Positions 1-16,507 of a stretch of DNA of 25,973 nt are shown piece after piece (within the stretch, counting starts at the first letter, position 1; the number at the start of each line of letters is the position of its first letter). The position numbers and the translations under genes were made by a program. Source of the stretch: a virus; IMG/VR virus record IMGVR_UViG_3300025131_007785, positions 1 to 25,973 of that record; one strand, 5' to 3'. The notes under the pieces are model-generated. The model was not told the DNA's origin, searched no databases, and saw only the letters and a list, made by a program, of their open reading frames with translations.

Positions 1-348
1 AGAGTACTCCTGCTCAAACCCAAACCAAGGCTCATCGTCCCGATATTTTTCCAGTACATCTAAGAACGCAGTCCTTCGATTAGAAACATGAGGCTCTCCC
101 AGTGCTGTCAACACTTCGCACAAAACGATAAGTGAATCCTCTGCATAGGGATGAGGATACGTTCTCACTGGCTTTAAAATACAGTCAGAGTCCGAACCCG
201 TGGCCTGGTGGGTCGAAGAGCCGTCAAAACTCCACGTTGGGGCATCATCTAAAGTAGGATCGAAACCAGGCACGACCTTTATCTTAGACCTAATTCCCCA
301 CGGCATGCCGCCGTCTATCCAAACATACTCTAGTTTATTGTACATCAT
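1..348 (-). CDS. Glutamine synthetase, class II (eukaryote-type), N-terminal part; runs off the window
   Basis: The first 116 residues are present and the gene continues beyond base 1. Translating from ATG at 348-346 gives VWIDGG near residue 10, then WSFDGSSTHQATGSDSD at about 39-55, ILKPVRTYPHP, and WFGFEQEYS at the window edge. These are hallmarks of the class II (GSII) beta-grasp domain and of the start of the catalytic domain, where the EQE glutamates bind metal. The family makes glutamine from glutamate, ammonia and ATP. The ATG overlaps the TAA of the upstream deoxyribosyltransferase-like gene (TAATG), which suggests translational coupling; a second ATG follows at once, so the exact first residue is uncertain. 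Supply of glutamine for nucleotide synthesis fits the neighbours, but that is inference. A GS-like ligase acting on another amine cannot be excluded from this fragment. Confidence 0.9.
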   Translation of the reverse strand, partial: MMYNKLEYVWIDGGMPWGIRSKIKVVPGFDPTLDDAPTWSFDGSSTHQATGSDSDCILKPVRTYPHPYAEDSLIVLCEVLTALGEPHVSNRRTAFLDVLEKYRDDEPWFGFEQEYS

Positions 349-785
349 TACTGTGTCTGCCCCGTGTATGGAATGTTAATTAGAAAATCCTGCTCACGAC
401 AGTCAAGAAGATAAGAATAAAGCTGCTCCCTAGAAGTGTTGACTGACACTCCTGCCTCTGAGAGCATGACATTAAACTTACCATCCGGCAGTCCCTCAGC
501 AAAAAATACGACAGGCTTGCCAATACCGTGAGAAAAGCCAGCCTCCCAGATAGTGCCAAGATCCTTGGCCTCTGTATTACACAGGACAAAATCTGCCCAC
601 TCTATCTTCTCGACATTCACGTCGAAGATCCTCTTTCGATCCTCGGCGGTAGCATTAGGATCCAGAACAAAATAATCCTTGGGTGAAAAATACTCATATC
701 CCAACTTGGTGAGGGCCTCCTTAATATATTCGACCTGATCAATCTGCTTGGGGTTAAAAAATGGGGATGCAATGTAAACTTTCAA
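348..785 (-). CDS. Nucleoside 2-deoxyribosyltransferase-like protein
   Basis: This 145-residue protein fits the nucleoside 2-deoxyribosyltransferase family. It opens with KVYIASPFF, has ADFVL at 64-68 (Asp65), then DLGTIWEAGFSHGIGKPV at 75-92 with the likely nucleophile Glu81, and FNVM at 104-107. The family transfers deoxyribose between bases or, in the DNPH1/Rcl branch, hydrolyses deoxynucleoside monophosphates. Which reaction applies cannot be read here. The start codon is TTG: it sits 6 bases after a strong AGGAG at 792-796, and that ribosome site is embedded in the end of the preceding small gene. The enzyme lies among dUTPase-like, phosphatase and glycosylase genes, so salvage or removal of unwanted deoxynucleotides is a reasonable inference. 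Confidence 0.85.
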   Translation of the reverse strand: MKVYIASPFFNPKQIDQVEYIKEALTKLGYEYFSPKDYFVLDPNATAEDRKRIFDVNVEKIEWADFVLCNTEAKDLGTIWEAGFSHGIGKPVVFFAEGLPDGKFNVMLSEAGVSVNTSREQLYSYLLDCREQDFLINIPYTGQTQ

Positions 786-786
786 T

Positions 787-951
787 TTAGTCTCCTTCTA
801 TAGGTTCAAGTTGTTTTTCAAAAAAATGACCAACCTTATTATCATATAAGACACGGTACATTTGTTTAGATTTCTCAGAGTCACCCAGCACAACTCCCAG
901 GGTGGTTGACTCTTTAAATATAAAACTGACTAGGGAGCCGCTAAGAAGCAT
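787..951 (-). CDS. Small hypothetical protein (54 aa), probably all-beta
   Basis: The frame from ATG at 951-949 to TAA at 787-789 encodes 54 residues starting MLLSGSLVSF. This start overlaps the end of the upstream 86-residue gene by 11 bases, as is usual in this operon; a longer version of the frame would overlap far more. Alternating hydrophobic strands (SLVSFIF, LGVVLGD, YRVLYDNKVGHFFEKQLE) resemble the small SH3-like barrel proteins scattered in phage genomes, but I do not recognise a named family. Its last codons contain the ribosome binding site of the next gene, which supports real translation through the junction. Confidence 0.6.
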   Translation of the reverse strand: MLLSGSLVSFIFKESTTLGVVLGDSEKSKQMYRVLYDNKVGHFFEKQLEPIEGD

Positions 952-1201
952 CTTCTCGGGCCCTAATGTCAAAATAATTTGCCAGCTCAGTATCACCAGC
1001 ATCGACCTGGTCCATAAACTGTTGGGCGCTTTTAATCGATTCCCTAAACTGCTGAGCACAGTCCTCGATGCTACCAATCGATCCAGGATTAAGAATTAGA
1101 TTCACCAGCTCAATACCCTTACTGTAAGCAACCTGGGCAATGAAAGACTCACGGCGGACCTTAAAATACAGGTCCTTATAATCACGTTCGTCGCCTGACA
1201 C
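941..1201 (-). CDS. Hypothetical protein (86 aa)
   Basis: An 86-residue protein of unknown function, rich in charged residues and probably mostly helical, with a likely amphipathic helix around CAQQFRESIKSAQQFMDQVD. It starts with GTG at 1201-1199, sharing one base with the TAG of the upstream dUTPase-HAD gene (TAGTG), so translation is probably coupled. No ATG occurs in frame until residue 64, which favours the GTG. It sits between nucleotide-metabolism genes but shows no catalytic motif that I can recognise. Confidence 0.6.
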   Translation of the reverse strand: MSGDERDYKDLYFKVRRESFIAQVAYSKGIELVNLILNPGSIGSIEDCAQQFRESIKSAQQFMDQVDAGDTELANYFDIRAREDAS

Positions 1202-2166
1202 TATCTCATTCCCGATAACTGTGTTATTGTATCAAGCAACTCTTGAGATGTCTTGTAAATTGTCACATTCTCCTGATTTCGAAGCTCCTTATTGTATGAC
1301 ATCTTAGGTGATGCAACTTTAACACCGTGCTTTGCATACTCCATGGTGTGTTTCACAGAATCATCAATGGCACAAACGACAGACTCGCTTTCAAAGTATT
1401 CTGTCTTTGTAAGCCAGATCATTTTTTCAGGTGAAAATGAAACTCGATCAAAGTTTAAACCTGACCTCTCCAGCCAGTAGTAAGTGTCATAGAGGCACTG
1501 CAGGTTTTTATCTGGACGAGCAGTCAGCAGGTGAATCCAAAATCCCATTAGCTTAAGCTGATTTAAAACGCCGACAGTCTCAGAGATGATGTCTAGGTCC
1601 CTTAAATGACCTGAATCGATAAACTCCTCAAAAAGGCCCTCCGGCGAATGACCTGAACCTTTAATTGGCACAACGTGATAATATTCCTTGGAATTAACAT
1701 CGACATCAATGCCCTTCTCATCTATCAGCCACTCAGTGAATCCCTTTCTGAACGTACAGATCACCTCATCCACATCAACAACAATAACAGGTTGCCCCTC
1801 CCATTTTCGCTTATCCAGCTCAAATCTAGTATGAAGAAATGAATCCCTATTCTGAAATGCGCTAAGAAAATCATCAGAACTATGTCCCCATAAATTCAAA
1901 ATAGCTAAAATATAACGAAAGGCGTCGACACTTTCATACAGGATCTTTTTCGTATTTACGGACCGGCCAGAGTTTATGTGATCCTTAAAACTAATCTCAC
2001 CCACAAGTGAGCTAACTTCACTGTGAAGTGCCAAGGCAAAGCTCCTTGTCATCTCCTCCTTCTCATCGACGGATAGGAGGTCAGAACTAAAAAATAGGTC
2101 TGAAAACTGACGCTGGACGGCCTGAAGTCCATTAAATGAATTAATATCCGGCTTTAAGTCTTTCAT
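1201..2166 (-). CDS. Fusion of an all-alpha dUTPase-like (NTP pyrophosphatase) domain with a HAD phosphatase
   Basis: Two domains are visible in 321 residues. Residues about 20-120 resemble the dimeric dUTPase/MazG-like all-alpha family: SEVSSLVGEISFK, then YESVDAF with Glu78 and Asp81, then a helix ending in FLHTRF. Residues about 125-315 form a HAD-type phosphatase: motif I DVD at 131-133, motif II threonine in LLTARP (Thr215), a lysine in the KMIWLTK region, and motif IV IDDS with Asp268/Asp269. This resembles 5'-nucleotidase-like HADs. The expected metal-binding ExxE of the first domain appears as Glu50-x-x-Ser53, so pyrophosphatase activity may be weakened or lost. It overlaps the upstream paralogous dUTPase gene by 26 bases. 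A route from dNTP to dNMP to deoxynucleoside is plausible but inferred. Confidence 0.8.
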   Translation of the reverse strand: MKDLKPDINSFNGLQAVQRQFSDLFFSSDLLSVDEKEEMTRSFALALHSEVSSLVGEISFKDHINSGRSVNTKKILYESVDAFRYILAILNLWGHSSDDFLSAFQNRDSFLHTRFELDKRKWEGQPVIVVDVDEVICTFRKGFTEWLIDEKGIDVDVNSKEYYHVVPIKGSGHSPEGLFEEFIDSGHLRDLDIISETVGVLNQLKLMGFWIHLLTARPDKNLQCLYDTYYWLERSGLNFDRVSFSPEKMIWLTKTEYFESESVVCAIDDSVKHTMEYAKHGVKVASPKMSYNKELRNQENVTIYKTSQELLDTITQLSGMR

Positions 2167-2518
2167 GAATCACCTTGTCCTTCTTAACATACATCTCAAA
2201 AAAATCATCAGCCGTAAAACCTGCCAGTAGAATCAGCTCAAAAAAGTAATTAAAGGCGTCAACTATCTCTTCCAAAAACTCATCCTTGTCAAAATCAGTG
2301 ACTGATGTCTGGCGATGGGGCTTCCAATTCTTGAGGTGCTGGAGTGCCTCAAACATCTCCTCCACACCACGAAGTGCAATATCCCTGACATACTGCTGGT
2401 GCTCCTTTGTGGAAAGATCCAGCGGCCAGGGGGGTGCCCCATTAACAGGGCTCTTTTTAATTGCCTCCATAAAATTAATCCTCATCTCAAAGAGGTCATT
2501 AAGCCTGTCCTCACTCAT
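2141..2518 (-). CDS. All-alpha dUTPase-like nucleotide pyrophosphatase
   Basis: This 125-residue protein matches the dimeric dUTPase/MazG-like all-alpha fold. The metal-binding pairs are intact: Glu54-x-x-Glu57 in EEMFEAL and Glu84-x-x-Asp87 in EEIVDAF. They are followed by a GFTADDFFEMY helix and a basic HERL end, all typical of the family. It probably hydrolyses a dNTP (dUTP is the best guess, dCTP possible as in T4 gp56) to dNMP and pyrophosphate. It aligns over most of its length with the N-terminal domain of the next gene, so the two are paralogues and might even pair as a heterodimer (inference). ATG at 2518 overlaps the TAA of the upstream small gene. Confidence 0.8.
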   Translation of the reverse strand: MSEDRLNDLFEMRINFMEAIKKSPVNGAPPWPLDLSTKEHQQYVRDIALRGVEEMFEALQHLKNWKPHRQTSVTDFDKDEFLEEIVDAFNYFFELILLAGFTADDFFEMYVKKDKVIHERLKAGY

Positions 2519-2745
2519 TAGTTTTCCGACGTCTTAATATTCTCAATCTCATGAAGCATTGTCTCATGCTGATTCTCCACAATCCCCTTGTACTCATCAG
2601 TTAAAACAAGCTGGGTCGTATCATCAACATTTTCCTCAAGTCGAATCATCCTCATGTGATCGGTAATATCGGTTCCTGTCAGCAGGCCCTCCTGCATCAC
2701 CTGAACAATCCTACGTAAAACATTATCACTCAATTTATATGCCAT
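2518..2745 (-). CDS. Conserved-looking small phage protein (75 aa), function unknown
   Basis: A 75-residue protein beginning MAYKLSDNVLRRIVQVMQE, predicted helical with an acidic C-terminus. A good AGGAG lies 6 bases before ATG, so the start is well supported. The pattern TGTDITDHMRMIRLE is reminiscent of small conserved proteins in large phages, but I cannot name the family. It lies between the Fpg/Nei-like glycosylase and the dUTPase-like gene and ends in a TAATG overlap with the latter. Confidence 0.65.
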   Translation of the reverse strand: MAYKLSDNVLRRIVQVMQEGLLTGTDITDHMRMIRLEENVDDTTQLVLTDEYKGIVENQHETMLHEIENIKTSEN

Positions 2746-2757
2746 TTTTTCTCCTTT

Positions 2758-3567
2758 TTATCTCTGGATGGACGGCACCCAATGTGTCATCCTACCATCC
2801 TTTGTTTTTTCCTTGACAACATCATTGCCGAGCGGATCGCTTCGCTGTCCATACACGGCAAATCGCTGACTGAACTCTCCTATTTTACCGTTCATGTCAG
2901 CATAAGTTTTAATTGTTGCACCGCCAGACTCAAAGCTCTCAACTAGGACCTTTCGAATTGACGTATTTAGTGCAGACATCTCATGTATATCTAAATCTGA
3001 CACTAAGCGATGAGGCGATATCTTAGCATTGTATAGCGCTTCAGCTTTTACATAGTTGCCGATACCAGACACAACGCCCTGATCCATAAGTGCCTGAGCG
3101 ATTGTCTTTGTCTTTTTTCTCATGAGATGCTCAGCAAATTTAAAGTCATCAATCTCCTCAGCAAGAAGATCTGGGCCTAAGGACTCCAGCTTGTCAATAA
3201 GTTGCTGTTTTCCCCGCACAAACTTAAGGGTCCCAAAATTTCTAGAATCAGTAAAAAATATTGATCCGTCATTTAAGACAAATTCAATGCGACTGTGCAG
3301 CTCATTCTTCTCATTTGTCCATGAACCTGTCATTCCTAACGTAGACCAAATGCTCCACTCGGCGTCCAATAGAAAGAATAAGAACTTACCGTGTACCCCG
3401 GCCCCTTGAATTCCAATCGGAGTCCACTCCATTATCTTGTCAAAGCCAGTGGGTGGGCCGTGCTTCTCATAGCGGCCGCTCAGTATCTTAATATCGACCA
3501 GCTTTCTATTCGAGACCCTCTTCGCGAGCTGGATACCGATTTGACGACACTCGGGACCCTCAGGCAT
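2758..3567 (-). CDS. Fpg/Nei-family DNA glycosylase/AP lyase with a zincless finger
   Basis: The 269-residue protein begins MPEGPE, whose Pro2 is the catalytic amine and Glu3 the acid of the Fpg/Nei family. Lys61 in GVHGKFLFF matches the catalytic beta-hairpin lysine. The helix-two-turn-helix spans about 157-186 (VVSGIGNYVKAEALY, Asn171). The C-terminal region 238-269 has the hairpin spacing of the DNA-binding finger, including GRMTHW with Arg259, but the zinc cysteines are absent, as in NEIL1 and plant-type enzymes. The family excises oxidised bases and cuts the abasic site. The start overlaps the upstream MBD4-like gene by 8 bases, so the two glycosylases are co-translated. Substrate choice (8-oxoG versus oxidised pyrimidines) cannot be decided here. 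Confidence 0.92.
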   Translation of the reverse strand: MPEGPECRQIGIQLAKRVSNRKLVDIKILSGRYEKHGPPTGFDKIMEWTPIGIQGAGVHGKFLFFLLDAEWSIWSTLGMTGSWTNEKNELHSRIEFVLNDGSIFFTDSRNFGTLKFVRGKQQLIDKLESLGPDLLAEEIDDFKFAEHLMRKKTKTIAQALMDQGVVSGIGNYVKAEALYNAKISPHRLVSDLDIHEMSALNTSIRKVLVESFESGGATIKTYADMNGKIGEFSQRFAVYGQRSDPLGNDVVKEKTKDGRMTHWVPSIQR

Positions 3568-3988
3568 CTAATTCATCCTTTAAAAAATTATGATAATCGT
3601 TTAGGGCGTGATCACTGGGCGCAACCTGCCGCCAGTCTCCCACGCAAAAAATATGCCACGCGTCGTCAGCATACTTCCCGCAACCATAAAGGTCCTTTGC
3701 GGTTGTCCAGTCTGCTTCTAAAAATTCATTAGAAAACCGGATCAATGTCTTAGCACGCTTACGCCACATACCTAGCGAGCGAAGCATGCCATGGAGATCT
3801 TCCTCTTGCGCAGTGGCAAGGCTTCTGGGAGCTGGATATCGTTCAAAAAGCCCATCAATTACCTTGTCAACCTGCTTTCGAGTCGTTAGATTTAAGAGCA
3901 GGCAGGCAACTAAAATTTTCCACGGGTCTGGCCATAAATCTTCCTGGATCAGGCCGTGTGGAGATTTTGGAGGTATCCAATCTTTCAT
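3560..3988 (-). CDS. MBD4-like HhH-GPD mismatch DNA glycosylase
   Basis: This 142-residue protein strongly recalls the glycosylase domain of vertebrate and plant MBD4. It has WIPPKSPHGLIQE and DPWKILVACLLLN at the N-terminus, a helix-hairpin-helix LYGCGKYADDA at about 100-110, then HIFCVGDWRQV and APSDHALNDYH. Asp126 in SDHALN corresponds to the MBD4 catalytic aspartate in EDHKLN. There is no Endo III-type catalytic lysine and no iron-sulphur cysteine cluster, so a monofunctional enzyme is expected. MBD4 removes T or U paired with G. The methyl-CpG-binding domain is absent and the protein is only the catalytic domain. It starts 9 bases after a strong AAGGAG and overlaps the AP-lyase gene downstream, a natural partner for cutting the abasic site. 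Confidence 0.85.
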   Translation of the reverse strand: MKDWIPPKSPHGLIQEDLWPDPWKILVACLLLNLTTRKQVDKVIDGLFERYPAPRSLATAQEEDLHGMLRSLGMWRKRAKTLIRFSNEFLEADWTTAKDLYGCGKYADDAWHIFCVGDWRQVAPSDHALNDYHNFLKDELDA

Positions 3989-4036
3989 TTCTCACTCCTT
4001 ACTTGAATAATACAGCAAGGAAAGAGTTTTTACATG

Positions 4037-4642
4037 CTATGCATAAAAATTAAATGCAATCCCAACCTCAACCTCTAGTCGCGGAGTTCCAATATGGTTT
4101 GCCAAATTGTGTTTAAGGGCCTCATTCGAATCTAAGAACCAATCGGCGTGGCCACGCTCGTGCACGATATCTAAAAAATAGTCCTTGTGCTTACCGCAGT
4201 TCAGAGCCATCATCTCGTAGACCTTGGTGTTCAGCCTCTCGGTCTCCTCAGCTGAAGCCTTTATCTCCTCAACCTTACCCTTTTCAAATGACGAGACGTC
4301 ATGAATCATGACAGTGGCATCGCTGTCCACATACCTCATCCCGTCCTGACCAAATGAAAAAAGAATTGCGCCACAGGACATAGCCTTTCCTGACACGATC
4401 GTAGCAATCGGAACATGTGCCGCCTTAATGGCGCTAATCATCGCCATCAGGCTATAAACCTGCCCACCATAAGAATCAATGACAACTGGTATCACCGTCT
4501 GGCCCGTATTATGTGCCTTAGATATTTCATCGGCAAATTTCTTAGCAGACGACTCATCAAACTTATTGACACGAATATAGACAGGTGAGTGCCTTAACTC
4601 AACTTCCTTAATGCGCGGATCAACCTTACTAACAATATTCAT
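4037..4642 (-). CDS. ClpP-like serine protease
   Basis: A 201-residue ClpP/crotonase-fold protease. The oxyanion-hole region is VVIDSYGGQVYS (about 54-65), the nucleophile is Ser89 in GKAMSCGA, the histidine is His114 in MIHDVS, and the aspartate is Asp167 in ADWFLDSNEA, all in ClpP order and spacing. I placed the start at ATG 4642-4640 because AGGAGT at 4649-4654 precedes it by 6 bases; an in-frame GTG at 4675 would add 11 residues but has no comparable site. The ribosome site overlaps the stop codon of the reductase gene. ClpP-like proteins occur in some T4-related phages. This one lies in the metabolic region and not beside capsid genes, so a prohead-protease role is less obvious. No ClpX/A partner is seen. 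Confidence 0.85.
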   Translation of the reverse strand: MNIVSKVDPRIKEVELRHSPVYIRVNKFDESSAKKFADEISKAHNTGQTVIPVVIDSYGGQVYSLMAMISAIKAAHVPIATIVSGKAMSCGAILFSFGQDGMRYVDSDATVMIHDVSSFEKGKVEEIKASAEETERLNTKVYEMMALNCGKHKDYFLDIVHERGHADWFLDSNEALKHNLANHIGTPRLEVEVGIAFNFYA

Positions 4643-4652
4643 TAATTTACTC

Positions 4653-7154
4653 CTACGAGCACTTAGACCAGCCACAGCTAGAGCATGTTATGCAACCCTC
4701 TTGATACGCAAATGACTCCATGGCGTTGCAGCCGGGACATGTCTTTTCAGTCGTAGTCTTCGTACCATTAATGATATAATTCTTGAGCACCCTAGCAACG
4801 ACCTTAGAAAATGAAAAAAGCTCCGCATCCTTATCCTTTTGTAGCTGCTCTACAACATACTGAATTGGGGCGCCATGACGCAGGCCTAAAGAGATCATTC
4901 GAGTAAATGACGAATAATTTGGATTATCAAAGAGTGAGACGATATTCTTAAGCATGACCTCATCGCCATTCTCACCAAATGAAAGATCATAGATAGAATT
5001 CATCGACTTACGAGGATGTTTCTTAATCTTACCCTCCTTGTACTTCCTAGGGATCTCAACGAACTCAGAAAGTCCGCCTATAACCTCGTACGGCTTATCG
5101 TTCATTAGGCCTATTAAAATAGTCCACTTCTCCCCCTGAATTGTAGCATGATGAATATGACAATGCAGGACATCAGGTCTCTTTGGAGCCGGATGTGATA
5201 TGAACTTATCGTCGCCCCTGTATTCGTTCCTCTTTTCAACCAAGACGCCACTGCGGCATTCAGCGCGATAGACGGTGACGCCCTTGCAGCCCGATTCCCA
5301 GCCGGCGACATAAATTTTCTTAATAGTATCGACGGATGTGTTTTCAGGCACATTTGTAGTGTTGGATATAGCGTGGCACACCCAGCGCTGTGCAGCAGCT
5401 TGAACCTTGACCTTCTGAACCCAGTCAATATTATTCGCAGTGGCATCGGCATACGGACTAGCGGCTATCAGCTCCTCAGGAGAACCGGTAGCTGACACAT
5501 GTTCCATCCACTCCCTAAACTTGTGATGATAGACGTCATACTCTTTCCACCTATCCCCAATGTCATCCGTAAAGTCATGCTCCTCACCATCAGCGACTTT
5601 ACGACGACGAGTGTAATGCAACATGAAAGCGGGCTCGATCCCAGAGGTGGTCTGTGTAAGGGTCGAAACGCTGCCGGCGGGCGCTGTGGTGGTGATCGCA
5701 ATATTTCTTCGACCCCAGCGCTGGTTCATCTGACGTGCCTTATAAGCGGTTGATTCCGGCGTCATCTCATCGATGGAATCAAAAATTCTCTCGAGAAATG
5801 GGTGACCAGCCTCCATGTCAGCATCGTGAACCTCAAACGCTCCCCGCTCCTTTGCCAGGACCATCGATGAAATATATGCATGAGTGGAAAGCCAGCGATA
5901 AATCTTTTCAGTCTCCTCAATACTTTGCTGGCTGCCGTATCGGATACCCAGCATCGCCAATACATCGCCTAGGCCAGTAATCCCCAAACCCGTCCTTCGT
6001 CCACGGAGGGCCTGGGTCCTAATCTTAGTCCACAGCTCAATCTCAATAGCCTTGGTAGTAATAGATTCAGGATCGCTTGCGATCTTAGCCAAAATAGCGT
6101 CAATCTGCTCGACCTCTAGGTCAATCATGTCGTCCATAAGACGCTGGGCCTTTTGCACGGTCTCACCAAAATGAGCATAATCAAAACATGCTGAATCTGT
6201 CCAGGCATTCTCCACGAAAGAAGTAAGATTAACCAGCATCAGCCTACACGAGTCGTAAGGGGATAAGATTATTTCTCCACACGGATTCGTAGAGACCGAT
6301 CCGAATCCCTGATCCTGATAAATGTCTGAAGGGGTATTCCTCTTAGCATTGTCCCAAAATAAAAGGCCGGGCTCGGCTGAGGCGTGTGCAGACACAATCA
6401 TTTCATCCCAGAGTTCCCTAGCGTTAACCTGCTCTGTAATCATGTGCTCTACATCACGATCCACTGGAAATCGAAGCTGGACGTCGGCATCGGACGACAC
6501 TGCGTTCATAAACTCGTCAGTTAAACGAATCGATATATTATCGCCAGTTACCCTAGTTAGCTCACGCTTAATCTTTATAAAGTCGCTAATTTGTGGATGA
6601 TGAACAGATATTGTCAGCATCAGAGCACCGCGGCGGCCACCCTGGGCTACCTCACGACAGGAATTAGAGAACCGGTCCATGAAGACCTCGATACCGTCAG
6701 TGGTGCGAGCTGCGTTCGCGGTGTTGAGTCCCTTAGGTCGGATCGTTGAGAGGTCAAAGCCTACGCCTCCTCGGCGTTTAGCAATCTGCACGAGCTCCTG
6801 ATCGCTCTTTAGAATACCACCATAAGAATCCTCAGGGGCATCGATCACAAAACAGTTAGAAATAGACTGAATCTGATATGGATTTCCAATACCGGCCATA
6901 GGCGAACCCTGTGGGACCACGTGCCTAAAGCCGTCCAGCAAGTCAAAAATTTCCTGCTCAGACATGGGATTATCGTATTTACTTTCAATACGATAGAATT
7001 CTGCAGCTAATCGCCTGTGCATATCTGCAGGGGTTGCCTCGAGAATCTCACCATTCGAATCTGTGAGGGCGTATTTAGTAACAAAGATGCTTGCAGCAAG
7101 TTCATCTCCGTTAAAATACTCTAAAGACTCCCTACATGCTCTCTTCTTATTCAC
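4653..7154 (-). CDS. nrdJ: Class II (adenosylcobalamin-dependent) ribonucleotide reductase
   Basis: An 833-residue protein that reduces ribonucleotides to deoxyribonucleotides. Key residues, numbered from the chosen start, are Cys101 in SNCF, the thiyl-radical Cys292 with Asn290 and Glu294 in NPCGE, and Cys303 in DSCRL. The 11-residue gap between the last two equals that of well-studied NrdJ enzymes. SGIEPAF, GCKGVTVYR and a terminal CPGC...CSSCGWSKC zinc-ribbon-like tail for disulfide exchange complete the class II picture. A GTG at 7169 overlaps the helicase stop, but the GTG at 7154 lies 6 bases after AGGGAG (7161-7166) and is preferred. The enzyme is oxygen independent and needs B12 from the host. 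No intein or split is seen. Confidence 0.93.
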   Translation of the reverse strand: MNKKRACRESLEYFNGDELAASIFVTKYALTDSNGEILEATPADMHRRLAAEFYRIESKYDNPMSEQEIFDLLDGFRHVVPQGSPMAGIGNPYQIQSISNCFVIDAPEDSYGGILKSDQELVQIAKRRGGVGFDLSTIRPKGLNTANAARTTDGIEVFMDRFSNSCREVAQGGRRGALMLTISVHHPQISDFIKIKRELTRVTGDNISIRLTDEFMNAVSSDADVQLRFPVDRDVEHMITEQVNARELWDEMIVSAHASAEPGLLFWDNAKRNTPSDIYQDQGFGSVSTNPCGEIILSPYDSCRLMLVNLTSFVENAWTDSACFDYAHFGETVQKAQRLMDDMIDLEVEQIDAILAKIASDPESITTKAIEIELWTKIRTQALRGRRTGLGITGLGDVLAMLGIRYGSQQSIEETEKIYRWLSTHAYISSMVLAKERGAFEVHDADMEAGHPFLERIFDSIDEMTPESTAYKARQMNQRWGRRNIAITTTAPAGSVSTLTQTTSGIEPAFMLHYTRRRKVADGEEHDFTDDIGDRWKEYDVYHHKFREWMEHVSATGSPEELIAASPYADATANNIDWVQKVKVQAAAQRWVCHAISNTTNVPENTSVDTIKKIYVAGWESGCKGVTVYRAECRSGVLVEKRNEYRGDDKFISHPAPKRPDVLHCHIHHATIQGEKWTILIGLMNDKPYEVIGGLSEFVEIPRKYKEGKIKKHPRKSMNSIYDLSFGENGDEVMLKNIVSLFDNPNYSSFTRMISLGLRHGAPIQYVVEQLQKDKDAELFSFSKVVARVLKNYIINGTKTTTEKTCPGCNAMESFAYQEGCITCSSCGWSKCS

Positions 7155-7165
7155 TCTAATCTCCC

Positions 7166-8557
7166 TCACACGACTTTTCTATCCTGAGCTACCTCACGCC
7201 ACTTTTTTCTGAGAAGCTCTTTCATGTCGGCTTCAGATTCCCGTTTTTTATTATCTAGCTCTACGACTTCGCTCTCTGTTAATGTACGGATTTTAGACTG
7301 CGCTGTATCGATTTTAATTGGAAAAATCAAGCCGTCGCGACCGGCACGGTTCTTAGCGACGAAGAGCCTGCCGGCGCCGTCTGCCTTTTCGTGGGTCTTG
7401 CGTGACAATGAAAGGACAACGTCAGCGACCATCGCCTTACCGTAGGCCTCAGACATATTCTCGAGGCCGACGATGTCGCTCTGCGCTGAGGAGCGATTAG
7501 CCTGTGAGGCTGTCCAAATCGGAATTTTTAGTTCCATTGCCATATTCCTAAGCTCCTCGTAGATTAACTTAAGCTCATGGCGAAGGGAGTCATACGATCG
7601 CGTAGAGCGCATGATGTCTGCATAGTCGATAATAAGCACATCAGGCTTAAAATTCTTAAGTGCCAGCTTCTCGATGTGATTCCTAATCGTCACCACCGAA
7701 GCGGAGCCAGTTGGATACTCCTTAATGATAAGCCGACCCAAGTCGAGTCCCTTATACTTTTCAATCACCTCTTCTTTTCTTTCAAGAAGCTCGTCAATAG
7801 GGATATCCGAAATGTGTGAATCATACCGCAATCCTGTTGAGACCTCTGACAGCTCGAAAGTATAGTGAACTACATTCTTTTCGTTCATCAAGGCTGTCGC
7901 ACCGGCCTGGACCAAGAAGTGGGACTTTCCAACTCCCGTATTGGCGACGACGACACCAATCTCGCCCTTGGCAAGACCTCCATTCATGACCTTTCTGTCA
8001 TCCAGCTCCCTAATTCCAGTCGGACAGGCATGCCTGACAATATGAACAAACCTGCTCTCCATGTCCTCAATGAACTCATGGCCGATAGAGGGTGTCGTTC
8101 CAACTGTCAGGGCTTCCCGTATAATGTTAATAACATTCTCATCCTGCCCAGTGGCAATCATATCTACGGCCTGCTCGAGCGCAGATCGCATTGCCTGCTT
8201 TCGACAAAAGTCTAAAGACTTATCCTTGACGTACTGAATGTCGCCCATGTCTGGATTCAGCTTAATTCGCTGTAGGTACTCAACAATCTTATCACGAAGA
8301 ATTACATCGGTCCCCGCACGAAGATCATCCCTAATAATTGTCACGAGCAACTGTAGCGTGGGAAAAGTTCGGTACTTCGTATAATAATCAAAATATTTCT
8401 GGGACAGGAACTTCAGGTGTTTAAGGTCAAAATAGTCGATCTTAATGACCTCAGACATCTGCTCAGCCCACTGGTGATCTGACAGGAGGGCCTGCATAAT
8501 TTTCTCTTGAAATGATGTGCCGTGCTCAGCAAAACTAGGGTTACTCAATGATTCCAT
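7166..8557 (-). CDS. DnaB/gp41-type replicative DNA helicase
   Basis: A 463-residue RecA-fold hexameric helicase. An N-terminal helical part (about 1-160) precedes Walker A ANTGVGKS at 205-212, the catalytic glutamate in TFELS (Glu235), Walker B VLIIDYAD with Asp311, SQANR at 351-355, and the arginine-finger region KNRAG at 402-406. These match DnaB and T4 gp41, which unwind the fork 5'-3'. No primase is encoded within the window. The gene ends one base-step from the reductase region (TGA inside GTGTGAGGGAG) and starts just beyond the exonuclease stop, inside the replication run. Confidence 0.92.
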   Translation of the reverse strand: MESLSNPSFAEHGTSFQEKIMQALLSDHQWAEQMSEVIKIDYFDLKHLKFLSQKYFDYYTKYRTFPTLQLLVTIIRDDLRAGTDVILRDKIVEYLQRIKLNPDMGDIQYVKDKSLDFCRKQAMRSALEQAVDMIATGQDENVINIIREALTVGTTPSIGHEFIEDMESRFVHIVRHACPTGIRELDDRKVMNGGLAKGEIGVVVANTGVGKSHFLVQAGATALMNEKNVVHYTFELSEVSTGLRYDSHISDIPIDELLERKEEVIEKYKGLDLGRLIIKEYPTGSASVVTIRNHIEKLALKNFKPDVLIIDYADIMRSTRSYDSLRHELKLIYEELRNMAMELKIPIWTASQANRSSAQSDIVGLENMSEAYGKAMVADVVLSLSRKTHEKADGAGRLFVAKNRAGRDGLIFPIKIDTAQSKIRTLTESEVVELDNKKRESEADMKELLRKKWREVAQDRKVV

Positions 8558-10670: not shown

Positions 10671-11495
10671 TTAGCTGAGCAGATCTTCAAACGCAGCATC
10701 AAGGTCGGTATACCCAGCACCCTCCGTGGCGGCAGCAGTGGATGTCGACTCGCTAGTAGTCGTGCCTCCTGTACCAGCAACAGTGGTCGTGGTCGTAGTG
10801 CCGAACCGTGTGGTTCCCATAGAGTCAGTAGGGGCACCACCATTTACCCAATCATTGACAATCTTCTCGACCTCCTCATATGTCTTAAGGTCATTCTTGA
10901 GAATATCATCTAGGTTAGGAACTGAATCCAGCCACTGCTTAGTTGCGGCGGTATCATCATTAAGGTTAGAAGCCTTCCCTCGTGGCATGACAGAGTCAAC
11001 CATAGGATACTTAAACCCATCCTTCTTGATGACCGTGACCTTAATGTCACGCCCCTCGCTCGGATCGGTAATATCACCATAATCTGGATCAAGCATAATA
11101 TTCAGCAGCTGCTGATAAATCATCTTGCTAAATGACCAAAGCTGGACACCAGCACCCTCATTATCACGGACTACGACTGGGCAGTAAGCTCGCATCTTGG
11201 GATAGAGCTTCTTGGCCAGCTCACGGGATCCTGGGGAACCCTCATCATAGAGCTTCCCCTGGAGTTCCTGGATCGGATCATTCTTGCCCAGGTGCCGGAG
11301 AGAAATAAATCCACGGGCTCCGAGGCCGTAGTGGTAGTATCGCTCCTTGAACGGCTGACCGTCATTATCGTTAAAAGGAAGCAGGCGCACAGTGTGCGTT
11401 CCCACATCCGGCTTCCAGAAGTTGGAAGTTCCTCGTGAGCCCTCTCCTGAGAGCTCGGCGACCTTGCGCCTAATTGCATCGAAATCAATTGCCAT
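10671..11495 (-). CDS. Single-stranded DNA-binding protein, gp32-like
   Basis: The 274-residue protein has a basic N-terminus, a core with FWKPDVGTHTVRLLPF and YCPVVVRD...VQLWSFSK, a long Thr/Ser/Gly/Ala-rich linker (about 230-262) and an acidic tail YTDLDAAFEDLLS. This layout is that of T4 gp32-type SSBs, whose acidic tails recruit replication proteins. The gp32 zinc ligands are not evident. It sits directly before uvsX, as expected for recombination partners. A good GGAG site lies before ATG. The 107-base upstream gap has inverted and direct repeats that could serve in self-regulation, as known for gp32. Confidence 0.85.
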   Translation of the reverse strand: MAIDFDAIRRKVAELSGEGSRGTSNFWKPDVGTHTVRLLPFNDNDGQPFKERYYHYGLGARGFISLRHLGKNDPIQELQGKLYDEGSPGSRELAKKLYPKMRAYCPVVVRDNEGAGVQLWSFSKMIYQQLLNIMLDPDYGDITDPSEGRDIKVTVIKKDGFKYPMVDSVMPRGKASNLNDDTAATKQWLDSVPNLDDILKNDLKTYEEVEKIVNDWVNGGAPTDSMGTTRFGTTTTTTVAGTGGTTTSESTSTAAATEGAGYTDLDAAFEDLLS

Positions 11496-11506
11496 CTTTT
11501 TCTCCT

Positions 11507-11552
11507 TCAGTGTTGTTCAGTGACAAATCGGAATATTCCGGCTGTTTTCCGG
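11507..11552 (-). promoter_or_regulatory. Structured leader of the SSB gene: candidate autoregulatory site
   Basis: Just upstream of the SSB ribosome site there are two CACTGA copies (11507-11512 and 11517-11522, 10 bases apart), a perfect 12-base palindrome CGGAATATTCCG (11529-11540), and an overlapping CCGG-N7-CCGG stem (11538-11552). The two stems share bases, so they would be mutually exclusive in RNA. T4 gp32 represses its own mRNA through a leader structure; a comparable role here is inference. Confidence 0.4.
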
Positions 11553-11572
11553 TGTTTTATATTCACACTTAT

Positions 11573-11601
11573 AAAATACTCTTTTATCTGCGTGTGTACA
11601 A
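11573..11601 (-). promoter_or_regulatory. Weak sigma70-like promoter candidate for SSB
   Basis: On the minus strand TTGTAC (11596-11601) is followed after 17 bases by TATTTT (11573-11578). It begins right at the stop of the upstream gene and would give a leader of about 70 bases carrying the repeats. Only about half of the -35 and four of six -10 bases match consensus. Confidence 0.25.
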
Positions 11602-11602
11602 G

Positions 11603-12241
11603 CTAAAATTCAGGATCTATGACAGATCCGCCCACGGCCTTCATGTAGTAATGCCAAGACGGGGGCTGCTTGCTTCGTTGGGGCTTTTTTGGGTACTCTG
11701 GGCCTACTCCAACGGGAACTGTGGCGCCAGCAACACCACCTGCTGAAATCTCATCGACCTCATCCTCGTCCAGGCTGTTGTCCATGAACTTTTGATTGGT
11801 CGATAGGTGACCCGCTGGACTCGGTGCGCTGTTATCGGCAACCATGGCGTCGACGTCTGCATTCTCTGGCTCAAGAAAAAGAGCGTTAATAAGCTTCCTT
11901 ATCCTCTCACGATTTCTGACATCCTCATCTCCAAGGTTTGGCACTGGCTTGTCAGAGTACTCGTCGGGAATATAGTAGGAGTCTCCAGAGTTCTGGATCA
12001 TCTTTGATCCCATGTAATCTGTGCCTGAAACTGATGGATCGCCGATCTGGCCATGCATGGGAGTGGGACGTGGGGGTCGGCCGAGCTGCGTACGCTGCGG
12101 TGTATCACTGGTAAATTTAGATGCGGCGGGCACACCAGTTCCTCTACCAGATCGATAATCGATTGGAGTGACATGCATCGCTCGGCGACTAGGGTACGTC
12201 TCCTGGATCAGCTCACTTAATAGCTTTTTAATATTGTCCAT
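11603..12241 (-). CDS. Hypothetical protein (212 aa), largely disordered
   Basis: A 212-residue protein with a short amphipathic N-terminal helix (MDNIKKLLSELIQETY), then a Pro/Gly/Ser-rich, low-complexity middle, a charged helix around RNRERIRKLINALFLE, and a C-terminal segment with PPSWHYYMKAVGG. I do not recognise it. It lies between the polymerase and SSB genes in the replication run. No Shine-Dalgarno sequence is visible before ATG: the 38-base gap is A/T-rich. The start is therefore less certain; a later start would lose the N-terminal helix. A scaffold or adaptor role would be guesswork. Confidence 0.6.
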   Translation of the reverse strand: MDNIKKLLSELIQETYPSRRAMHVTPIDYRSGRGTGVPAASKFTSDTPQRTQLGRPPRPTPMHGQIGDPSVSGTDYMGSKMIQNSGDSYYIPDEYSDKPVPNLGDEDVRNRERIRKLINALFLEPENADVDAMVADNSAPSPAGHLSTNQKFMDNSLDEDEVDEISAGGVAGATVPVGVGPEYPKKPQRSKQPPSWHYYMKAVGGSVIDPEF

Positions 12242-12279
12242 GCACTATAAATAGGTGTAATAGGAGTAAAATTACCAAG

Positions 12280-13479
12280 CTAAAAGCCAGAAACATCAAC
12301 ATAGAATGGAACTTCAAAGCCATCTATCTGCATGTGGCAGTTGGCCAGCTTTCGCAGTGTTTCCATGCTGTTCGAATGAACATCGAAAATTATGGCATCA
12401 TGTAGGATAAAAATAGGAACGATTTTATCTCCCTTCAGTCGGGTGACGATCTGCTGGAATCCGTGCATTGCAACATCTACCCCTGTCGACTGAATAAAGT
12501 TATTATAGAGTATATGGGATGACTTGTCAGTCGCCAGCATCTTTCGACCGAAGTGATTGGAGATCGATCCGGTCTCCACGGCGTCTTTCAGCAGCTCCAT
12601 CGACACCTTCTTAACATCAAAAGCCCGTGAGATCCTTTCAATAATATCCCCGGCGGCTTCGAGGTTGACAGACAATTGAGAGGCGAGGCGCTTGCGGCCG
12701 GCACCATAGATGACTGAGAGGCAGGCAAGCTTAACGGCACTCCTGGGATATCGATTCTCAAAGACTGTCCTAGAGAGCTGCGTGTAGATATCCCTTTCTG
12801 GAACCATACCCCCAAGCGCAGCGGCAATACGTGCCTCCAGGGAGACAAAGTCCACCTGCACTATGTGACCGCCGTCGAACCTAGACTGAATTATGGATCG
12901 AAAATCTCTCTTGAGGCGAAGAATCTGTGGACCCGAACGTTCAGTCAGGCGACCTGTCCTAGAGCCAACCTGGTTGTATCGCACAAGCGGCGCAAATCCG
13001 GTGTCGTCTGGTCGGAATGACGCAATGACAGATCGCTGGCCAGGGGAAATGCTGCCCTGCATAAAATTTTGAAGAGTGACCGAATTAATGGACGCGCTCT
13101 CAAGGGCTCTCAGGAGGTCCCTGGTGGTCGCGAAATAAGAATGATAGTATTCCACCATCCCGCGCTCCAGGATGTCCCAGGAGTCATTCCTGAGCCTCCT
13201 AAGGTAGTCCTGGTACACATCGCCGGGCATCATCCACTTTAGGGGCACAGACTTGAGTGGCGCGACCGTCGCGGCGGCGCGAAGAAACTGCTGTGGGGGG
13301 CTGAGGTCAATCTCTAAACCGGAGACTGCGGCTAGGTCCTCGACGCGGAGAAGGGAGCTGGGATCACCCACTGTCCACGCGCCAGGGGGTGGTGTGGACT
13401 CACTCGTCACAGAATCATCACATGAGAATGTAATCCCACACTTTCCGTCGACCAACCTGGATGAAATGTGCAACAGCAT
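12280..13479 (-). CDS. Family A DNA polymerase, polymerase domain only, altered motif C
   Basis: The 399-residue protein is the thumb/palm/fingers part of Pol I. SRTGRLTERSGPQ at about 173-185 precedes motif A VDFVSLEARIAAAL with Asp210 and Glu215. Motif B holds Arg246, Lys250 and Tyr258 in RSAVKLACLSVIYG, with Leu254 at the usual Phe position. Motif C reads LHDAIIFDV (His360, Asp361, Ala362), so the usual HDE is HDA while both key aspartates remain. No 3'-5' exonuclease domain is present and the frame has no room for one before the upstream gene. The 5' nuclease is supplied by a separate gene. No Shine-Dalgarno sequence precedes ATG, but TATAAT lies 9 bases upstream, so the message may be leaderless. 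Either a replicative or a specialised repair polymerase is possible. Confidence 0.88.
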   Translation of the reverse strand: MLLHISSRLVDGKCGITFSCDDSVTSESTPPPGAWTVGDPSSLLRVEDLAAVSGLEIDLSPPQQFLRAAATVAPLKSVPLKWMMPGDVYQDYLRRLRNDSWDILERGMVEYYHSYFATTRDLLRALESASINSVTLQNFMQGSISPGQRSVIASFRPDDTGFAPLVRYNQVGSRTGRLTERSGPQILRLKRDFRSIIQSRFDGGHIVQVDFVSLEARIAAALGGMVPERDIYTQLSRTVFENRYPRSAVKLACLSVIYGAGRKRLASQLSVNLEAAGDIIERISRAFDVKKVSMELLKDAVETGSISNHFGRKMLATDKSSHILYNNFIQSTGVDVAMHGFQQIVTRLKGDKIVPIFILHDAIIFDVHSNSMETLRKLANCHMQIDGFEVPFYVDVSGF

Positions 13480-13528: not shown

Positions 13529-16507
13529 TTATGACTGGTCAGAAGATTCTGTCTCCTTGAGCTCAGCGACATAAGATCGGAAGGTGCCGTAGGCGTCCAC
13601 GAAGGCAAAGCCCAAATTGGTCTCAAAGTTGCCAGGACCAATCTTGTGCGTCACGTTGATGGCGTGATATATGTTGTCGACAGATGTGCCAGTTCCAAAG
13701 TCTATAAAAAACTGCTGCATATACTCAATAATAGGGCACCCTATAATTGTCATAGACAGCTGTGTGGGGAATATCATCATTGGAACATTGCCATCACCCA
13801 TTCCCTGAGGTGTCAGGGGGCTCGGGTTTGGGCCGCCACCTGTCATAATGTTAGTGGAGAGTGCCTGGTCATTCATGGTGCTAAGCTGAGCACGTTTGAT
13901 GACTGATGCGGAGGTGCCGTAGGTTATGGTCGGAACGTTGGCCCGAATTACCCGAAGCATTAAGCTTGTGTTTATATCTGTTGCCTGGGCTCCGAGACCA
14001 CCACCCTCCTCGGCAGTGTCTGTGCCAGCGTCACCCTCCTCCTCCGTTGATGGTTCCTCTGGAACTGGATCGGCAATCTCTCCTGGCTGCTGAACATAGC
14101 CTTTGGTAAAATGCTCGTAGGCTGCTGTTAAGGTGTTCATGTACGCGCCGTGCGGAGTTGACTGCTTGTCAAAAAAATGAATCTTAACTATCTCATTCAA
14201 GACCAGGTCATCGTTCTCTGTTCCAGAATCGCCAGACATCTGCTCTATATTAACTCCCACCTGTGGCATCTTAAACTCTGGAGAAGCGCCAATAGCCTCT
14301 AGCTTTGTGCCCCTAGCATCTCCGAGAGCGCTGGCCTCGATGTCGTCGTCCCTTCGCTCCACCTTATATTCGCCGGTCTCATCAATGGTCGACTGGTAAA
14401 ATGACTCCACTCCGTACATCTCATTTGACATGTCGTCGACGAAATTTGAGACCACAAACTGCACAAAGTCCTGCACCGTGAGATCGACTGTCCTTCGACG
14501 CTGGACGAATGAAGTAAAGACACTTTTAAATTGATTAATGTTTATAGTGAACTCTGATATGTTCCTAGAGGGTCCGCGGTTTGAAATACCAGCGGCACCT
14601 GCCTGATCATTAAACTTATGAAATATAAGCTGAACATCGCTGTAGCTTTCTCCTGTCATCAGCGGAACACCCAGAAAAATTGCCATCAGCTTGCCAAATG
14701 TCACCACTGACTTCTTCTGAGTTGGCGGGTCAACAGCACTAAGCCCTGACTCGACTGCCTCAGCCCACTTCGCAGAAATATCAAAAAATGGATCGGGAGA
14801 GCGAGCTATAGACAGGTCATCATTGCGTGTGTTCACGCTATCTATAAGGGCCAGTTTTCTATTGACAGAGCTTTCAATATCCCCATACATCATATCAACC
14901 ATGGTAGTACCGTCTCGAGGATTTGACGACTTAGTGTACACCTCATTAATAGCAGCTATCAAATCCTTTGCGGCTGTTCGAGCCTGGGACGAAGCATCAC
15001 TATCTGACTTAAGTACTATAAGCTGTGCACGTAACTGCCTGAGCTGGGTCGATAGCGGCGTTCCCGAATCACCGACAGGTGTCTGCAAATTAGGAATTGT
15101 TGTAATACTCTGCATACTTCCCAGAAATCTGTTACCCTTGACATTAGCCAGCGACTCAGACCCACCTGGCTGGGAACTGAGCGTGCCGAGCGCTTCCTGG
15201 ATTGTCTCGGTAATGTCCATCAAATTTTGATAGGCACCACCGACACCAGTTATACCAGGGCCAGCCGGAATCTTGATATTGGTCATATCCATCGCTGCTG
15301 AGGAATGTAGCTGAAGTATAATTTTAACCTGGCCTACGTCGTCGAATGAGAGCTTATAGTTGGTGACTCGATACGTCTCACGCTTTCGAAGTGAATTTAA
15401 AAATCTTCCATAGACATTCGGAGATCCATCGCCGGCCCCAAGTGATGTATCAACGAGATTTCCGTGCGGGTGAGACCATCCCCACTCTATAAAAAATTTA
15501 GCTGACTTATACTGGCCCGGATTCAAAAGCTGCGATATCTCACCCATCCTAGAGCGATCGTGAAGTGTCAAGGACATAGTGGCTGTCCGGTATGATATCG
15601 TCCCAAAACCGGCGCCGGTTGTCTTGACCTGGAAGTCATTAAGCGATAAAAACGGACGGAATCGATCGATAATGGGTGCAGCCCTTAGCTCCGGATTGTA
15701 TGTCGTGTGATCGGCAGCGGGAACTAAAAGCTGTGGTGACGTAAATATCTCCATGCCAGCAGAGCCTAAAATAGGCCCCTCTCCGCTCATAATAGACTCA
15801 AGTAGCCCAGGTATCTCCCTAATGTTACCAGGAGTACCCGAGGCCTTGACACCCTCACCGGCCATCATCTTAATAGTCGAGTCTTCAGTGGATAAATCCT
15901 TAGCACCTTCCAGGAACTTATACAGAGAGGTTCCTGTGGCGCGATTGGTCCCGGGGGTTGGATTCTTATCGTTGGAAATGTTGACAGTTAAGTAAGGTTG
16001 GCACAGGGCAAGCTGGACGGTTGGCAGGGAGTTGAAGAACAGCTCAATAGCCTTGACATTTCTCATCGAGGGCCCGAGCTTATGCGCCATACAGCATATG
16101 ACACTAAGATGAGCACCATCATCGGACGGTGTGGTGCCAGTCGGCAATGTCTCGCCAATAACGGCGTCAAGGCCCGCCATAGCGGTGCCATCGAGATCAA
16201 TCTTCATAGACTTATCGGAACCGTACTTGTCAGGAATATTAAAAGACTCATCCTTCCCAGAAAATATCATAATAGGAAAATTAGTGGTCGGGTTCTCCTG
16301 GGCGCCCTTCAGGTTCTCGACCATCTGGGCTCCACGAAATGCGCCTGCGGGACTTCCAAAAATTAAATTACGGAGGTTCTCATCTGTCTCCTGCACGTTC
16401 TGCTGCGCCGTCTGTGTTGGGCTTAAAAGTGGCGGCTCCAAGAAATATCCGGCCAATTCATCGGCCGCGATATTCAGCGCGCTCTTTGGAGACTTCAATT
16501 CGGTCAT
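13529..16507 (-). CDS. Large baseplate/hub-like structural protein (992 aa)
   Basis: A 992-residue protein without enzymatic motifs. Residues about 280-345 (PFLSLNDFQVK, ATMSLTLHDRSRMGEI, LLNPGQY, FIEWGWSHPHG) form a beta-rich block that I associate with phage baseplate hub proteins. Residues about 600-730 hold a second mixed domain. An acidic, Glu/Gly-rich linker lies at about 810-840. The C-terminal part (MTIIGCPIIEY, QQFFIDFGTGTSVDNIYH, HKIGPGNFETNLGFA) looks like another tail beta domain. The ATG overlaps the TGA of the LysM gene (ATGA), suggesting coupling. It ends the tail module before the polymerase promoter. The role is inferred from position after the tape measure and from general pattern; the precise T4 counterpart is unknown. 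Confidence 0.6.
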   Translation of the reverse strand: MTELKSPKSALNIAADELAGYFLEPPLLSPTQTAQQNVQETDENLRNLIFGSPAGAFRGAQMVENLKGAQENPTTNFPIMIFSGKDESFNIPDKYGSDKSMKIDLDGTAMAGLDAVIGETLPTGTTPSDDGAHLSVICCMAHKLGPSMRNVKAIELFFNSLPTVQLALCQPYLTVNISNDKNPTPGTNRATGTSLYKFLEGAKDLSTEDSTIKMMAGEGVKASGTPGNIREIPGLLESIMSGEGPILGSAGMEIFTSPQLLVPAADHTTYNPELRAAPIIDRFRPFLSLNDFQVKTTGAGFGTISYRTATMSLTLHDRSRMGEISQLLNPGQYKSAKFFIEWGWSHPHGNLVDTSLGAGDGSPNVYGRFLNSLRKRETYRVTNYKLSFDDVGQVKIILQLHSSAAMDMTNIKIPAGPGITGVGGAYQNLMDITETIQEALGTLSSQPGGSESLANVKGNRFLGSMQSITTIPNLQTPVGDSGTPLSTQLRQLRAQLIVLKSDSDASSQARTAAKDLIAAINEVYTKSSNPRDGTTMVDMMYGDIESSVNRKLALIDSVNTRNDDLSIARSPDPFFDISAKWAEAVESGLSAVDPPTQKKSVVTFGKLMAIFLGVPLMTGESYSDVQLIFHKFNDQAGAAGISNRGPSRNISEFTININQFKSVFTSFVQRRRTVDLTVQDFVQFVVSNFVDDMSNEMYGVESFYQSTIDETGEYKVERRDDDIEASALGDARGTKLEAIGASPEFKMPQVGVNIEQMSGDSGTENDDLVLNEIVKIHFFDKQSTPHGAYMNTLTAAYEHFTKGYVQQPGEIADPVPEEPSTEEEGDAGTDTAEEGGGLGAQATDINTSLMLRVIRANVPTITYGTSASVIKRAQLSTMNDQALSTNIMTGGGPNPSPLTPQGMGDGNVPMMIFPTQLSMTIIGCPIIEYMQQFFIDFGTGTSVDNIYHAINVTHKIGPGNFETNLGFAFVDAYGTFRSYVAELKETESSDQS

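Follow-up and report, generated by a model that had tools for sequence, protein, structure and literature searches.

When cytosine carries a methyl or a hydroxymethyl group its deamination becomes dangerous, as the product is thymine or a thymine-like base and escapes uracil repair. Mismatch repair coupled to cytosine methylation is exemplified by Mig.MthI, a thymine glycosylase encoded beside a 5-methylcytosine methyltransferase, and by the Vsr/Dcm system. Both pair with a site-specific methyltransferase, whereas the phage module considered here would be paired with modification at the nucleotide level. To our knowledge, the way phages with such cytosines limit deamination has not been studied. 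In phage T4, the nucleotide pool is edited by gp56, a dCTPase/dUTPase, and by gp42, a dCMP hydroxymethylase. The present analysis concerns a gene block carried by an IMG/VR viral fragment of 25,973 bases (IMGVR_UViG_3300025131_007785), the whole of which is called hereafter the window, encoding among others a mismatch glycosylase of the MBD4 type, a Nei-like abasic site (AP) lyase, two MazG-type proteins and a nucleoside 2-deoxyribosyltransferase (NDT). With a probability of about one in two, this block is the pool and repair module of T4-like phages whose DNA probably contains a C5-modified pyrimidine, which, for the readable close relatives, is probably cytosine. Like T4, the window encodes a gp56-like MazG protein, and the thymidylate synthase (TS) homologues of its relatives are gp42-like, with an Asp at the position of D179; on the available DNA, the window lineage differs from T4 in having a ThyX-like gene and no gp42 homologue.

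A further parallel is offered by Xanthomonas phage Xp12 (MT664984) and its sister, Stenotrophomonas phage AXL1 (Bosavirus). According to the accessible part of the AXL1 paper (PMC9206674), all cytosine of Xp12 is 5-methylcytosine and the DNA of AXL1 withstands most restriction enzymes tested. The same part states that AXL1 gp65 occurs otherwise only in Xp12, a statement on which the presence of the glycosylase in Xp12 rests here, and does not identify gp65 as MBD4-like. In AXL1, the glycosylase gp65 stands with gp64 (MazG-type), gp63 (TS-like), gp62 (dCMP deaminase) and gp61 (dihydrofolate reductase). AXL1 has in common with the window and its relatives an MBD4-like gene beside a MazG-type gene and, with the relatives, a TS with Asp at position 177 (see below). 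AXL1 and Xp12 are nonetheless unrelated siphoviruses, in which Nei, MazG-HAD and NDT were not found nearby and the one-carbon enzyme is a TS homologue. As a counterpart of the MazG-HAD protein, suggested by a "HAD" label in the sister phage, gp64 was dropped, as its second half carries no HAD motif. An open-access literature search returned no paper linking MBD4-type phage genes with modified cytosine.

A conserved block with an MBD4-type glycosylase and a Nei-like lyase

The block is a real conserved module in a large group of T4-like phages. A profile scan of IMG/VR for MBD4 gave at least 567 relatives, 80 of which were fetched. In dozens of contigs, whose MBD4 proteins are approximately 42-68% identical to that of the window, the order RecA-exonuclease-DnaB-ribonucleotide reductase (RNR)-ClpP...MBD4-Nei-smallA-MazG-MazGHAD...NDT recurs with losses and insertions, and many relatives have in common the portion from RecA through ClpP and from MBD4 through MazG. 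In contig L147, MBD4, Nei, smallA, MazG, MazG-HAD, ThyX-like and NDT genes are contiguous. The expectation of the initial annotation that the set would co-occur in other phage genomes is thus borne out for much of the block in dozens of contigs and for the whole in L147, and the gene identities, the single strand and the order it had given agree with the open reading frames (ORFs) and with Pfam, NCBIfam and PHROGs, all named cassette genes lying on the minus strand. Scanning the genomes of bacteria and archaea yielded just six relatives, all in metagenome-assembled genomes.

The glycosylase (3560-3988, 142 aa; Pfam HhH-GPD 33 bits, above cut-off) matches the glycosylase domain of human MBD4 through its residues 2-138 (137 aligned residues, 136 bits with phmmer), the next best match being Endonuclease III with 27 bits, in line with the MBD4-like character first ascribed to it. 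Residues Q449, N467, T469, G538, Y540 and D560 of human MBD4 are invariant in 82 of 82 relatives, and we take Asp560 to be the catalytic residue and Gln449 and Tyr540 to contact the base. The human arginine finger, Arg468, is replaced by Leu (44), Gln (28), Cys (9) or, once, Met, which is why the protein is labelled MBD4-type and not claimed as an MBD4 orthologue; it also differs from the human protein in having no methyl-CpG-binding domain and in belonging to a phage operon. A monofunctional glycosylase acting on T, U or 5-hydroxymethyluracil (hmU) opposite G is predicted.

MBD4 enzymes being monofunctional, a downstream lyase would make biochemical sense, and such a gene, overlapping that of the glycosylase, is the Fpg/Nei AP lyase (2758-3567, 269 aa; Pfam Fapy_DNA_glyco 54 bits, H2TH 70 bits). 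It displays the N-terminal MPEGPE and an H2TH domain, and its best PDB matches are 3a45 and 3a42 with 130 bits versus 105 for bacterial Fpg. These entries, which we take to be structures of mimivirus Nei1, have like the phage protein a finger without the zinc-binding cysteines of bacterial Fpg (C-terminus RSDPLGNDVVKEKTKDGRMTHWVPSIQR), i.e., the zincless subtype; at about 130 bits, the activity is a predicted one. Nei lies beside MBD4, or shares an ORF with it, at 21 loci, corresponding to 16 of 53 MBD4 clusters. At L067:9998-11236, MBD4-like and Nei-like domains are found within one ORF. As evidence of fusion this ORF was given little weight, since Pro2 of Nei would be buried and the ORF may equally well reflect an internal start or a misassembly. 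That the pair attacks foreign DNA, from the host or a competing phage, as a weapon or for nucleotide scavenging, appears highly improbable: DNA glycosylases do occur in prokaryotic antiphage defence (PMC11078745, accessible part) and the downstream pool enzymes could recycle the products, but MBD4-type enzymes act on mismatches, their T/U recognition residues are invariant here, and normal host DNA would contain few targets.

Thymidylate synthase homologues on MBD4-bearing contigs

Whether TS has Asn or Asp at position 177 (E. coli numbering) tracks modified cytosine, Asp selecting dCMP (PMC8670742); homologues with Asp177 are called hereafter dCMP-type TS (TS-D). The survey covered 50 large records (33-416 kb), of which 49 encode MBD4. 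The contigs are fragments, related to one another and partly selected. A gene of the TS family (PF00303) is present in 22 of the 50, and each of the 22 has one or more copies that keep the catalytic Cys and carry Asp177, the two Asn177 copies among them being second genes. The TS of contig L003 matches the CMP hydroxymethylase MilA with 107 bits, T4 gp42 with 76 and TS with 61. Asp177 TS also accompanies MBD4 in AXL1, DoCa6, Donnerlittchen and cyanophage S-TIM54. When contigs were anchored on Asn177 TS, MBD4 was present in 3 of 50. In two of these three, a further, divergent homologue carries Cys and Asp at that place; the third is the 28-kb fragment G148. The dCMP-type TS genes on MBD4 contigs, together with the literature on Xp12 and AXL1 (PMC9206674), support a link between the block and a modified base, which had initially been raised as a possibility.

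Two phage contigs of 219 kb and 349 kb possess, in addition to a normal TS, very divergent TS-family proteins (L399:1321-2097 and L400:1321-2106; PF00303 scores of 16-18 bits) in which Cys and Asp occupy the gp42 positions. At L023:15984-20408, the dCMP-type TS is followed by a UDP-galactopyranose mutase (268 bits), a gene weakly matching glycosyltransferases and one resembling thymidylate kinase, and the same arrangement exists in L028, L029, L030, L041, L042 and L044. This gene content suggests that the DNA of the subgroup may be glycosylated, with galactofuranosyl-hydroxymethylcytosine as the candidate base.

The ThyX-like family and the pool enzymes

The most telling genes lie outside the window, namely the dCMP hydroxymethylase-type TS of the relatives and a divergent ThyX beside the block. 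On contig L002, whose proteins are 99.9-100% identical to those of the window, the unit runs beyond the window end with a complete glutamine synthetase GlnII, the ThyX-like protein (family f16, 11926-12858), a small ORF and a P-loop kinase. The predicted fold of f16 is that of ThyX, in a model of moderate confidence (predicted local distance difference test, pLDDT, 68). The protein scores 51 bits against an NCBIfam thyX cut-off of 88, the canonical motif RHRxxSxNExSxR is not found, the window lineage reading RGRVGWAYNVESQMP, and a PHROGs search gave only the generic label "thymidylate synthase". Four f16 contigs also have a more canonical ThyX, so f16 is taken as a paralogue, probably with another job.

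All 14 NDT-bearing contigs carry f16 and none of them a dCMP-type TS. Family f16 (18 loci) and TS-D (24 loci) never occur at one locus (overlap 0), and of the 49 MBD4 records, 22 have TS-D and 13 have f16, no record combining the two (hypergeometric 8e-5, uncorrected for kinship). The two labels switch at least twice on the DnaB tree and three times on the RNR tree, across well supported branches, and the same kinase family is found near f16 or near TS-D. This alternation and the common kinase family argue that f16 fills the role of the dCMP-type TS, on cytosine or, as a parallel with phage SP-15 would allow, on thymine. A tentative reading, less likely than not, is that f16 uses flavin to (hydroxy)methylate dCMP at C5, having replaced the gp42-type enzyme repeatedly without being homologous to it, and that modified-cytosine phages carry a dedicated MBD4-Nei pathway against deamination. 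In Geobacillus phage GR1, f16 occurs with NDT and a dUTP diphosphatase; the paper on this phage makes no mention of DNA modification.

The pool enzymes themselves begin with a MazG-type all-alpha nucleoside triphosphate pyrophosphohydrolase (2141-2518; phrog_12184 72 bits, dUTPase_2 23.1 bits, barely above cut-off), which shows the motifs ExxE...ExxD as EMFE and EIVD and aligns with T4 gp56 across the C-terminal half, both proteins ending in GY; it is predicted to be a gp56-like dCTPase/dUTPase. Its gene overlaps that of a 321-aa fusion of a MazG-like domain with a HAD domain resembling 5'(3')-deoxyribonucleotidases (1201-2166; phrog_420 56 bits, both domains weak in Pfam), where only the second MazG motif is fully kept. 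The AlphaFold model of the latter (pLDDT 91) has as best solved folds in Foldseek 3bwv, 4mum and 2i7d, all deoxyribonucleotidases, and the HAD motifs DxD and DDS..KH are conserved in 16 homologues, so that on the model the HAD domain appears deoxyribonucleotidase-like. Searching the PDB by sequence with MazG-HAD and with MazG gave nothing usable, and MazG-HAD had no tblastn match in the phage collection.

The NDT (348-785, 145 aa; PF05014 62 bits, phrog_7995 86 bits) has 6evs as best PDB match, all its significant PDB relatives being NDTs. Across 14 sequences, Y4, D75, E81, N105, M107 and Y140 are invariant, i.e., the Tyr, the Asp, the Glu nucleophile, the N-x-M motif and the C-terminal Tyr are all present. 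In DNPH1, a phosphate-binding Ser replaces Asp92 and Asn123 of NDT. The DNPH1-type relationship put forward in the initial annotation was ruled out by the invariant Asp75 and Asn105 and by the PDB matches, and the residues argue for a nucleoside-type enzyme. A pool role for it is plausible, since an NDT-family protein works in pool control in Z-DNA phages (PMC12884076). Of the sanitation first proposed for these pool and repair enzymes, the conserved block stands, but the direction of the purging is probably reversed: by analogy with T4 gp56, it is more likely unmodified pyrimidine dNTPs that the pool enzymes clear, making way for use of the modified one.

These same enzymes bear on another possibility, itself doubtful, where f16 makes 5-hydroxymethyl-dUMP and thymine is the modified base, MazG-HAD and NDT removing dTTP and dTMP and MBD4 handling U:G and mispaired hmU:G. 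MazG-HAD and NDT indeed accompany f16 and not the dCMP-type TS group, and several of the deoxyribonucleotidases resembled by the HAD domain were solved with uridine-type ligands. Moreover, SP-15, with hypermodified thymine, has like the four f16 contigs two Thy1 proteins (gp9 and gp130), one of them proposed as a hydroxymethyluridylate synthase, the likeness to f16 being by description only (PMC5977210). Against this stand the position of f16 in the same syntenic block, its alternation with dCMP-type TS on the trees and the common kinase family nearby; furthermore, no hmU-specific gene was met among the scanned genes, whole genomes not having been scanned for such genes.

Proposed pathway, surroundings and significance

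The following scheme builds on the observed gene identities, conserved residues and synteny, on the finding of Asp177-type TS alongside MBD4 and on the separate occurrence of TS-D and f16; all of its substrates, the base modified in this phage and the way one step feeds the next are inferred. The gp56-like MazG would convert unwanted dCTP and dUTP into monophosphates, part of the pyrimidine monophosphates then being taken by MazG-HAD and the nucleoside-type NDT to deoxynucleosides and free bases. The modified monophosphate would come from a one-carbon enzyme, the dCMP-type TS homologue in close relatives and, in the window lineage, the divergent ThyX paralogue in its place with a thymidylate-kinase-like protein nearby. 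The kinase would phosphorylate the modified nucleotide ahead of polymerisation. Within DNA, the MBD4-type enzyme may remove thymine, uracil or 5-hydroxymethyluracil paired with G, the respective deamination products of 5-methyl-, plain and 5-hydroxymethyl-cytosine. The Nei-type lyase would then cut at the resulting abasic site, leaving a gap for polymerase and ligase to fill and seal.

Several points weigh against a modified-base module. The window-lineage records, all fragments, show no TS and no proven modification gene, L002 and G051 in particular having no TS homologue, and in G148, a fragment of 28 kb, the sole TS accompanying MBD4 is of the Asn177 kind. In the reverse test, the association is weak, MBD4 being present in 12 of 50 Asp177-anchored versus 3 of 50 Asn177-anchored contigs (p 0.02), and not robust, as without contigs already known to have MBD4 the counts become 4 of 42 versus 3 of 50 (p 0.7). 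T4 makes hydroxymethylcytosine, and we know of no MBD4 in T4; a deaminated glycosylated hydroxymethyl base may not fit the MBD4 pocket. The nearest relative of the window, L090 (92% DnaB identity), has no MBD4 and keeps the remaining genes; as L209 likewise has smallA-MazG-ThyX-like-NDT without glycosylase, the repair pair is considered a separable add-on to the pool genes.

In another account, held to be unlikely, ordinary repair and nucleotide genes are grouped as replication genes group and MBD4 repairs U:G and T:G of the phage with no link to a modified base. The block is located in the replication cluster, MBD4 and Nei are gained and lost independently, the reverse test shows little association when selection is taken out, and about 14 of the 49 larger MBD4 contigs, being fragments, have neither TS-D nor f16. 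This account has to face the fact that every MBD4-bearing record found with a TS-family gene, in several unrelated phage groups, has a dCMP-type copy, G148 excepted, and that Xp12 and AXL1 combine the glycosylase with 5-methylcytosine or restriction-resistant DNA (PMC9206674).

Around the block, upstream genes in the window encode T4-type baseplate proteins (gp53-like, hub-like), PolA, SSB, a UvsX-like RecA, an exonuclease and DnaB (7166-8557; phrog_19 257 bits), a replicative helicase with which the upstream replication block starts. RNR is, as first annotated, a class II (adenosylcobalamin) reductase, NrdJ, for deoxynucleotide supply (TIGR02504 487 bits, cut-off 400); its ORF (4653-7169) starts at 7169 and not at 7154, the end initially given, and overlaps that of the ClpP-like protease (4037-4675; PF00574 82 bits), a syntenic neighbour. 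The initial inclusion of these two in the cassette holds as synteny, any part of theirs in base sanitation being conjectural. Between Nei and MazG, the conserved 75-aa protein smallA (2518-2745) was traced with a profile hidden Markov model to 49 loci, the window copy having no family match in Pfam, PHROGs or NCBIfam; smallB, an 86-aa ORF (941-1201), was met in no contig other than the window, its twin L002 and L090. The window end cuts GlnII (1-348, N-terminal part; PF03951; NCBIfam GlnII 446 bits, cut-off 500), complete on L002 with 338 aa (10860-11876); phage GlnII adjoins the cassette at 17 loci, in both subgroups. All these genes of the window are on the minus strand.

The PolA-type polymerase of the window is short (399 aa, 12280-13479), and relatives also have a 1,200-aa Pol III alpha-type polymerase adjoining the TS gene (family f9, e.g., L003:15794-19423). 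Three large ORFs between PolA and the hub gene (13529-16507, 16806-19985 and 20264-24382; 992, 1059 and 1372 aa) gave no PHROG match. The phage contig L003 further carries a NifU-like iron-sulfur scaffold (179 bits) and a fatty-acid-hydroxylase-like protein, at loci L003:5398-5781 and L003:10456-10884.

For the biology of these phages, the joint occurrence of an MBD4-type glycosylase and a dCMP-type TS would provide a direct and testable answer to the question of how modified-cytosine phages limit deamination. The pair could also be used to pick out, by sequence, phages whose DNA is likely to be modified, and the divergent ThyX is a candidate for a new enzyme activity.

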